Positions 29,806 through 35,091 of a DNA stretch of 63,675 nt are shown piece after piece. Source of the stretch: a candidate division Zixibacteria bacterium HGW-Zixibacteria-1 (lineage in GTDB: Bacteria; Zixibacteria; MSB-5A5; GN15; PGXB01); contig PGXB01000019.1 in assembly GCA_002838945.1 (NCBI GenBank), positions 1 to 63,675 on the forward strand, in the 5' to 3' direction. Made by a program: the position numbers and the translations under genes. Position 1 is the stretch's first letter; each line of letters begins with the position of its first letter. The notes beneath the pieces were generated by a model that saw only the letters and a list, made by a program, of their open reading frames with translations, was not told the DNA's origin and did no database searches.

Positions 29806-31749
29806 ATGAACGCTCACGCCAGAACTTTCATTTGTCTTTTGATTGCCATATTTCTTTTTGCCGCCGATTTTTCCGCCGAAACATACACCCCGCCTGATGA
29901 ACTTCAGCTTCAATTCGTTCCCCGACATCCCGCACCCAATTATATTGCCAAACGACCCGGCCACTACTCCGGGGACGACTGGCAGGCCGTAATTGACTCA
30001 ACCTGGGGCGACGGGCACTCCGTCGGTTTGGAGTCTTATCTCTTTCGCAAATTCTGGCAGGAAATCGATTCGGTGTTCCCCTGTTTTAATTATCTCGATA
30101 CCAACGTCTGGGATTCGTTATACGATAAATATTATCCTGAGATCCTGGACTCGGTCAGTCGTGGGAGATTCAGTGCCATATTGACCCATGCCACCATGGC
30201 CCTGCGTGAAAGTCATACCAGGGCCTATGATTCCGTCGTCCTCATGACTGAACCGGCTCCGGGCGTCCCGCTGCTGTGCATTGGCGGCTGGGGAGAAAAC
30301 AACCACTTCGGGGCTGGTCTGACACCTTTGCCGGACAGCTCTCTGCTGGTTTACACTGCCGTTGACAATCACCCCCTCGGTCTTGTCCCCGGTGATGTCG
30401 TCTTGGGCTATGACGGGATTCCATGGAAATTATTATATCCCGAATTACTGGACGCGGAATTGCCGGTTTGCCGGCCATTTTGGGGTAGTTCGGAAGAGAC
30501 CTTCACTCATGCCATTCTAATGGCCGCCGGACTGAACTGGCATCTGTACGACACCATCGATATTGCCAAATATGGAACTGACGACACTATTCACCTTCCC
30601 ACAAGTTTGATGGATGGCCAACTCTTACCGCTTTTTGCAACGGAGCAGTTACCTGTCCCGGGTGTTCCCTTTCCTATCTATACCGATGCCGGCGATACTC
30701 TTGTCACCCGGGGTTTGATCGAAGAAACTAATATAGGTTATATATATGTGCTGGGATGGTTCGGCAGCTCGGGGAGCGATTTTTACAACGCGGTATCGGA
30801 AATAATGTTCGACCATGAAACAATCGGATTGATCATTGATTTTCGAACTACTTATGGAGGCTGGGTCGTTTATCAGGACGGCCTGAAGCTTCTCTATGAT
30901 ACAACCATGGAAACCTCCAAATGGGTCAAACGCTGCGATCCCGATGATCATTATGCCATGTGCCCCAATCCCTCATTTGATTCGGCCATGCTTATTCGCG
31001 GAGATCCCAACTCATACTATAATAAACCGATTGCCGTCCTGACCGGGCCGGGGGCCGTCAGCGCCGGTGACCAGGGCGCGCTGGCGATGTCATATCATCC
31101 GATGGTAAAATTCTTCGGCAAACCGACACGCGGAGCCTTCAACTCCAAACGGTTTATGCTTCTTTACGATGACATCGGCGGCTTTGTGGCCATAAACGAG
31201 TCATATCAGGTCAAGGACTCGGGCCGCTATCTTACTCACCTTAATTTTCCGAGTGTTGAGGATTTCCCCGATGTCCCTTACGAGGATATCTGGCTTTCGA
31301 GGGACGGCGCCGCACAGGGGAAGGACGATGTTGTCGAAGCGGCTATGGCTTGGATCAATAGCTTTGATGCCGACGCTGACGGCGTCCAAAACGGCAGTGA
31401 CAACTGCCCGCTCACATTCAACCCGCTGCAGGAAGAATATGACGGCGACGGTATTGGTGACAGTTGCGATAATTGCATTATAATTGCTAATCCTGATCAG
31501 GCCGACACGAATAGCAATAATATCGGCGATATATGCGAATTCACTTGCGGTGACGCCAATGGCGATGGTTTGGTCAATATCCTTGATATTACATTTTTAA
31601 TAAATTATCTTTATAAGAACGGTAATGCACCAGTACCGCAGGAAGCTGCCGATCTGAATTCTTCAGGCAATATCAATATTCTGGATATTACTTATCTCAT
31701 TAATTACCTGTACAAGAGCGGGCCGGAACCTTCCTGCCGGGGATTCTAA
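29806..31749 (+). CDS. Secreted S41-peptidase-like protein with TSP3 and dockerin
   Basis: The 647-residue protein has a signal peptide (about 1-24) and a tail-specific protease (S41)-like region (about 60-515). A PDZ-like part is suggested by HPLGLVPGDVVLGYDGIPW, and an S41-like catalytic core by NIGYIYVLGWFG, GLIIDFRTTYGG and AVLTGPGAVSAGDQGALAMS, where the serine is the candidate nucleophile. Thrombospondin type 3 calcium repeats follow (about 522-580, DADADGVQNGSDNCP and DGDGIGDSCDNC), then a paired dockerin (about 583-645). A GGAGGG SD precedes ATG. It is likely an extracellular protease, but the catalytic dyad is not certain from sequence alone. Confidence 0.85.
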   Translation: MNAHARTFICLLIAIFLFAADFSAETYTPPDELQLQFVPRHPAPNYIAKRPGHYSGDDWQAVIDSTWGDGHSVGLESYLFRKFWQEIDSVFPCFNYLDTNVWDSLYDKYYPEILDSVSRGRFSAILTHATMALRESHTRAYDSVVLMTEPAPGVPLLCIGGWGENNHFGAGLTPLPDSSLLVYTAVDNHPLGLVPGDVVLGYDGIPWKLLYPELLDAELPVCRPFWGSSEETFTHAILMAAGLNWHLYDTIDIAKYGTDDTIHLPTSLMDGQLLPLFATEQLPVPGVPFPIYTDAGDTLVTRGLIEETNIGYIYVLGWFGSSGSDFYNAVSEIMFDHETIGLIIDFRTTYGGWVVYQDGLKLLYDTTMETSKWVKRCDPDDHYAMCPNPSFDSAMLIRGDPNSYYNKPIAVLTGPGAVSAGDQGALAMSYHPMVKFFGKPTRGAFNSKRFMLLYDDIGGFVAINESYQVKDSGRYLTHLNFPSVEDFPDVPYEDIWLSRDGAAQGKDDVVEAAMAWINSFDADADGVQNGSDNCPLTFNPLQEEYDGDGIGDSCDNCIIIANPDQADTNSNNIGDICEFTCGDANGDGLVNILDITFLINYLYKNGNAPVPQEAADLNSSGNINILDITYLINYLYKSGPEPSCRGF

Positions 31750-31824: not shown

Positions 31825-32217
31825 TTATGATTCCTCGTCCGTCTTATCACCAAGATCAAACTTTACCTTGTAAGCCACCCAGATAGCCACCGGTTTAACA
31901 CCTTGTTTAGCCGGGGTAAATTTATTCTTATATGCCGCCCGGACTGCCGAACTATCAAGGGCCTCATTTCCGGATGTTTTCCCCACCAGCACTTTAACAA
32001 CGGAGCCGTTCGTATCGACCAGCGCCTTGATCATCACATCACCCTCAATACGAGCCTGTTTTGCCGCCTCCGGATAAACGGGCGGTATATTTTCAATCAT
32101 CTGCGGCATCGAATCCACCGCAATGAATTCGTCCGGTCCCGGCAGCTTATCCTGGGATTGAACCAAAGTGGCCAGAGCAAAAATCATTACAGCCAGCGCC
32201 AAACACTTCATTTTCAT
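31825..32217 (-). CDS. TonB C-terminal domain protein
   Basis: The 130-residue protein has a signal sequence (about 1-22, CLALAVMIFALATLVQS). A TonB C-terminal domain follows (about 45-125, PPVYPEAAKQARIEGDVMIKALVDTNGSVVKVLVGKTSGNEALDSSAVRAA ... KFTP ... VWVAYKVKF). It lacks the long proline-rich periplasmic spacer of true TonB, so it is a short TonB-like protein anchored or secreted in the periplasm. ATG 32217 has AGGAGGC 5 nt upstream; the more upstream ATG is disfavoured. A damaged second copy of the same domain lies just upstream. Confidence 0.85.
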   Translation of the reverse strand: MKMKCLALAVMIFALATLVQSQDKLPGPDEFIAVDSMPQMIENIPPVYPEAAKQARIEGDVMIKALVDTNGSVVKVLVGKTSGNEALDSSAVRAAYKNKFTPAKQGVKPVAIWVAYKVKFDLGDKTDEES

Positions 32218-32301: not shown

Positions 32302-32385
32302 CTAATCCATGGCAAACTTGACGGTATAGGTCACCCACACCGCCACCGGCTTATTCCCCTGGGCCGCCGGTTTGTATTTATTCTT
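32302..32385 (-). pseudogene. 3' fragment of a second TonB C-terminal domain gene
   Basis: Minus-strand codons read SKNKYKPAAQGNKPVAVWVTY, then TVKFAMD and a stop. This aligns with YKNKFTPAKQGVKPVAIWVAYKVKF of the intact gene at 31825-32217. Homology stops abruptly at about 32385, where the sequence becomes the start of a sigma factor in another frame. The fragment has no start or signal peptide and should not be functional. Confidence 0.8.
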
Positions 32386-32512
32386 ACTGGGTGATATCGC
32401 CGGCCGCATCTTTGTCGCCGAGCATTCTAAGCGCGAAATTATATACCCGATCCTTATGCCCGTAAAATATTTCGCCAAATCTCTTGTTCATGCCGTCAAC
32501 GGACTCTGTCAA
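32384..32512 (-). pseudogene. 5' fragment of an ECF sigma factor gene
   Basis: A TTG at 32512 preceded by GGAAGGA opens 42 codons reading FGEIFYGHKDRVYNFALRML, GDKDAAGDITQ and then a stop. This is a near-perfect ECF sigma region 2.1-2.2 beginning. Sequence beyond the stop belongs to the TonB fragment, so regions 2.3-4 are missing. The simplest history is a deletion joining the head of a sigma gene to the tail of a TonB gene. Confidence 0.8.
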
Positions 32513-32589
32513 GGTGGCTTCCTTCCGGAATCTTTTTCTATCTTAAAGACACACCAATTCAATAAATGTCGCCTTTTTTTTGCCCAATC

Positions 32590-32622
32590 AATAAAAAAGT
32601 CAGGCCGGTGCGGCCTGACTTT
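32590..32622 (-). terminator. Rho-independent terminator of ahcY
   Basis: On the minus strand an 11-bp stem (aaagtcaggcc / ggcctgacttt) with a 5-nt loop is followed by TTTTTTATTG, 35 nt after the ahcY stop codon. Confidence 0.92.
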
Positions 32623-32657
32623 CATAAATTACCCGAAATCCTGAAAATTCTGCGGCT

Positions 32658-35091
<2,434 letters not shown>

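Follow-up and report, generated by a model that had tools for sequence, protein, structure and literature searches.

The window, the whole stretch of 63,675 nt that was analysed, carries on its minus strand the head of an ECF sigma factor gene set directly against the tail of a TonB gene. The question raised by this locus is how two partial genes came to abut, what stood between them before, and whether the remnant still does anything. We describe the two fragments, compare the locus with that of related genomes, and weigh the explanations of the junction.

Gene fragments at the junction

A TTG codon at 32512-32510 of the minus strand opened a reading frame of 42 codons, LTESVDGMNKRFGEIFYGHKDRVYNFALRMLGDKDAAGDITQ, whose last codon ended at 32387, and a TAA at 32386-32384, formed by the join itself, closed it. 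The product of this truncated gene (32387 to 32512, minus strand), as read from the TTG codon at 32512, was GEIFYGHKDRVYNFALRMLGDKDAAGDITQ (ECF sigma region 2). Codons 19-42 corresponded to positions 5-28 of the 71 in Pfam Sigma70_r2 (17.4 bits, E 0.004), a score under the family cut-off because the fragment alone is present. The sigma head shared 62% identity with the N-terminal end of the complete ECF sigma factor at the same locus of the related genome G001 (tblastn E 3e-14 in a small locus set). When the whole genome to which the window belongs was searched with the G001 sigma protein, the scar was recovered at E 9e-11 as a truncated match containing stops. The remnant contained only part of region 2 and no region 4, and thus lacks the pair of regions by which an ECF sigma factor is recognised; its ORF is stopped by the TAA made at the join and is therefore unable to make a sigma factor.

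The minus-strand frame beginning at 32385, shifted relative to that of the sigma head, reads KNKYKPAAQGNKPVAVWVTYTVKFAMD and stops at 32302. This tail, the last 27 codons of a gene together with its stop (32302 to 32385, minus strand), matched positions 55-78 of the 79 in Pfam TonB_C with 15.1 bits. The first ATG of an intact gene for a short secreted TonB_C protein of 130 aa (31825 to 32217, minus strand; TonB_C E 7e-19) lies at 32217, 84 nt past the stop of the tail, and across 24 aa the tail shared 71% identity with the C-terminal end of the protein that this gene encodes. An earlier note on this DNA had claimed that the sigma head stops exactly where TonB_C continues in another frame, and that the tail is a paralogue of the intact TonB gene 84 nt downstream. 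The coordinates and the partial Pfam domains agreed with the first claim base for base, and the identity to the intact gene bears out the second. As judged from these comparisons, chance does not explain two such specific partial matches that meet at a single base, in a locus whose two genes are complete in a relative.

On the upstream side the locus is anchored by an intact AHCY gene (S-adenosylhomocysteine hydrolase; 32658 to 33935, minus strand), with a match to Pfam AdoHcyase at E 2.5e-61 and 88% identity to that of G001. An intrinsic terminator with a 13-bp stem, a 3-nt loop and a T run follows it at 32595 to 32623 on the minus strand (fold of -23 kcal/mol, z -3.4), and this terminator was present in G001 too.

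The intact locus in a related genome

G001, with a fragmented assembly of 470 contigs, was the one other species of the genus compared. Its gene order is AHCY, ECF sigma, zf-HC2 anti-sigma, TonB_C fusion gene, short TonB and lptG/lptF, with the step from the third gene to the short TonB gene spanning a gap between contigs. Contig C79 (L035) holds the first part of the order and breaks off within the signal peptide of the gene after the fusion, and contig C410 (L051) holds the end and begins inside the short TonB gene. The sigma factor was complete, with 168 aa and both Sigma70_r2 and Sigma70_r4_2 (Pfam). The anti-sigma protein of 157 aa had a zf-HC2 domain and one hydrophobic span, and its gene adjoins the sigma gene, as in an ECF sigma/anti-sigma operon. 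The third protein, 423 aa long, was secreted and carried TonB_C as its last 80 residues. The short TonB protein of C410 was orthologous to that of the window (58% identical), with lptG and lptF following as near the window. The earlier note had proposed that related genomes be compared, and had supposed a former layout of sigma, maybe anti-sigma, and two TonB-like genes. In G001 all four were found in an intact sigma-anti-sigma-TonB_C-TonB arrangement, and the anti-sigma was confirmed as zf-HC2.

The window aligned to G001 on both sides of the scar. The upstream alignment comprised the AHCY terminator, the promoter-like motif, the start codon (TTG) and the sigma gene to codon 42; the downstream alignment began 27 codons before the stop of the fusion gene and took in this stop and the following intergenic stretch. 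Both window fragments are thus parts of genes that are complete at the same locus of G001. Comparison of both flanks with L035 placed the junction at 32385 to 32387 (minus strand), with the break after 32387, and there 2,055 bp of G001 were missing. These cover the larger part of the sigma gene, the anti-sigma gene in full and the third gene up to its last 27 codons. No base was shared at the breakpoint relative to G001, and within 30 bp of both G001 ends the shared words were at most 6 bp long; a short microhomology in the ancestral sequence is possible.

The missing interval of about 2 kb was present nowhere else in the source assembly (3.8 Mb, a draft in 82 contigs, estimated 97% complete). 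A search of this genome at E<=1e-5 found no homologue of the third gene, and no close sigma paralogue was found in it, the best other sigma factor being at most 33% identical.

Probable loss of the operon and rival explanations

With two gene ends abutted, a stop made by the join, the interval absent from the genome and a collinear intact locus in the sister genome, the arrangement is very probably what a single deletion of about 2 kb left inside a sigma operon that the sister genome still has intact. Downstream of AHCY, the ancestor would have had a probably autoregulated operon of a sigma factor, a single-span zf-HC2 anti-sigma and a secreted TonB_C protein, and then the short TonB_C gene. 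In such an intact cassette the membrane anti-sigma would hold the sigma factor until an envelope signal arrived, and the freed sigma factor would activate its own operon. The sequence after sigma codon 42 would then have been cut out as far as the last 27 codons of the third gene, so that most of region 2, region 4 in full, the complete anti-sigma gene and the third gene except its end were lost. A promoter-like motif without its sigma factor would be left over, plus the short TonB gene. We infer a loss in a single event in which sigma and anti-sigma went together, apparently by illegitimate joining, as the join showed no direct repeat. The scar has no difference of substance from a pseudogene made by internal deletion, in which gene head and tail abut, the interval is gone and a relative is intact. 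It appears to be ordinary gene loss, cleanly documented by comparison, and makes a clean example of an accessory sigma/anti-sigma switch lost in one step; because the two genes were lost together, no unrestrained sigma factor would be left. A search of the literature on lost ECF/anti-sigma loci, at the level of titles and abstracts, found no paper on the scar locus.

The source genome is a draft and the only assembly of its species that was compared, and the two ends at the junction might have been wrongly joined in it while the organism itself carries the intact operon. The join, however, keeps the gene order and orientation of the intact locus. With no base shared at the break, and only words of up to 6 bp shared within 30 bp of the two G001 ends, an assembler had no overlap to misuse, and the 2 kb lie nowhere else in an assembly of this completeness. 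A misjoin is therefore very unlikely. It is hardly credible that the remnant is a functional small gene, either a 42-aa peptide of sigma region 2 or a leader ORF controlling the downstream TonB gene. Its ORF is open, its TTG start is placed as in G001 and the promoter-like motif is intact, but it ends inside sigma region 2 without region 4, its stop is an accident of the join, and the short form was absent from all other genomes examined. An open ORF is also what the simulation described below leads one to expect after a recent deletion.

The origin of the tail is a separate matter within the same deletion. The earlier note had explained the junction by a deletion between a sigma gene and a duplicated TonB gene. 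The deletion stands, with G001 intact and its flanks aligned, whereas the plain duplicate is less likely: the lost TonB gene probably encoded a secreted protein of an orphan family fused to TonB_C. A separate duplicated TonB gene would suit the identities, the tail being slightly nearer to short TonB proteins (70-71%; 70% for the short TonB of G001) than to the G001 fusion protein (59%). It would suit the distribution of the fusion as well, which among eight aligned third proteins occurred in G001 only, G003 and the other aligned cassette loci being without it. Against this, the tail sits at the position of the 3' end of the fusion gene and has the same final residue (...D*), it is followed by matching intergenic sequence and then by the short TonB gene, and over only 27 residues the difference between 16 and 19 identities is not decisive. 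We regard a separate TonB gene as an unlikely source of the tail, and a fusion gene like that of G001 as the probable one.

Age of the proposed deletion

Both fragments were still open. Their divergence from G001 (62% identity for the sigma head and 59% for the tail) was similar to that of genes still intact there (the short TonB protein is 58% identical), and simulated decay was fast, so that the deletion is probably young compared with the split from G001. In a simple neutral model with an assumed indel rate, the joint chance that both fragments remained without stops or indels was about 7% at 0.1 substitutions per site and <1% at 0.2.

The promoter-like motif

An ECF-type promoter-like motif of the lost operon, GACATTT-N13-GTCTTTA, was located at 32544 to 32570 on the minus strand. 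Each of the ten loci, the scar and nine intact cassettes, had the pattern RAHHTTY-N13-GTCTTYA upstream of the sigma gene, with a spacing of exactly 13 nt. An earlier pattern with a spacing of 14-17 nt gave no relevant match because the true spacing is 13. When the 3.8-Mb genome was searched with a slightly stricter pattern than RAHHTTY-N13-GTCTTYA, the scar motif was the sole match. Other matches in the cassette-bearing genomes were few and mostly within the expectation from a reversed-pattern control, and the module may therefore control little besides itself. Many ECF promoters typically carry GTC in the -10 element. The motif, conserved across the loci, is a candidate for an autoregulated promoter of the sigma operon. 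Positive autoregulation is described as common among ECF factors, with FecI-like systems as an exception (PMC8103513).

The short TonB gene now lies about 0.3 kb from the motif, compared with about 2.4 kb in the intact layout. Its expression, if any, now relies on other promoters or on another sigma factor that uses the orphan motif.

The cassette across the phylum

Matches to the third gene were obtained in 12 of 132 genomes of the phylum, ten of them strong. In nine of nine strongly matching loci examined, the third gene follows a sigma and an anti-sigma gene; the tenth strong match, at the edge of a contig in G100, falls outside this count. G124 and G126 gave a weak match to the third gene, next to sigma and anti-sigma genes that were distantly cassette-like, and the motif was absent from both. 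A profile of the third protein had no significant match among PDB sequences and Pfam.

The N-terminal part of the third protein (L035 2647-3621 and its relatives) constitutes a secreted family without a Pfam match above the cut-off. The anti-sigma proteins of the cassettes (L035 2163-2633, L040 and L064-L069) have a C-terminal motif past the membrane span, with the consensus QPVQxIVLTEADIV. This stretch may sense a signal or be handed one, and is a candidate for the signal-receiving part.

The G001 cassette resembles known ECF/zf-HC2 (ZAS-like) operons, as its sigma factor has regions sigma2 and sigma4 only, its adjoining zf-HC2 anti-sigma has one span, and a conserved motif lies upstream. It differs from them in its third gene, which encodes a secreted family without Pfam assignment and, of the aligned loci, carries a TonB_C fusion in G001 alone; the window, for its part, keeps no functional part of such an operon. 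With FecI-FecR-FecA it shares a sigma factor, an anti-sigma and a TonB connection within one locus. However, the cassette has no TonB-dependent receptor (Pfam assigned zf-HC2 and TonB_C only), its TonB_C is on a secreted protein, and its anti-sigma is of the zf-HC2 type and not FecR-like.

From a search that covered one phylum, we tentatively suggest that the lost cassette represents an undescribed ECF signalling module, a reading we hold to be possible rather than probable. The module would consist of a sigma factor, a single-span zf-HC2 anti-sigma with QPVQxIVLTEADIV and a secreted protein whose family has no name. With its promoter-like motif lying chiefly at its own operon in the genomes that carry it, it would be self-contained, gained and lost as a unit, and fused to TonB_C in this genus. 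If this is true, the loss of the sigma factor here left a promoter beside a TonB gene. Analysis of the scar drew attention to this small, conserved ECF module, whose third protein lies outside Pfam, and the module in the relatives is of greater interest.

The AHCY-lptG site in the family

In G003, a member of the same family, the cassette was again found between AHCY and lptG. Other family members had different genes at this position, and the stretches examined beside their AHCY genes contained neither the motif nor a sigma fragment as a remnant of the cassette. Since G003 has the cassette at the same place and other family members are without it, the cassette was probably at the AHCY-lptG site in a family ancestor and was probably lost more than once; its independent gain is a possible alternative. 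When the short TonB protein was used to look for this locus among GTDB contigs, the only match was an unrelated TonB of Flavobacteriales.

In G005, the match to AHCY (L045) ended at residue 137-138 and was followed by a run of undetermined residues, which is probably masked sequence or an assembly gap. In the window, a plus-strand gene at 29806-31749, between the short TonB gene and lptG, encodes a secreted S41 peptidase with TSP_3 and dockerin type I repeats. On C410 of G001, lptG directly follows the short TonB gene, without the S41 peptidase gene, which was therefore either gained here or lost in G001.
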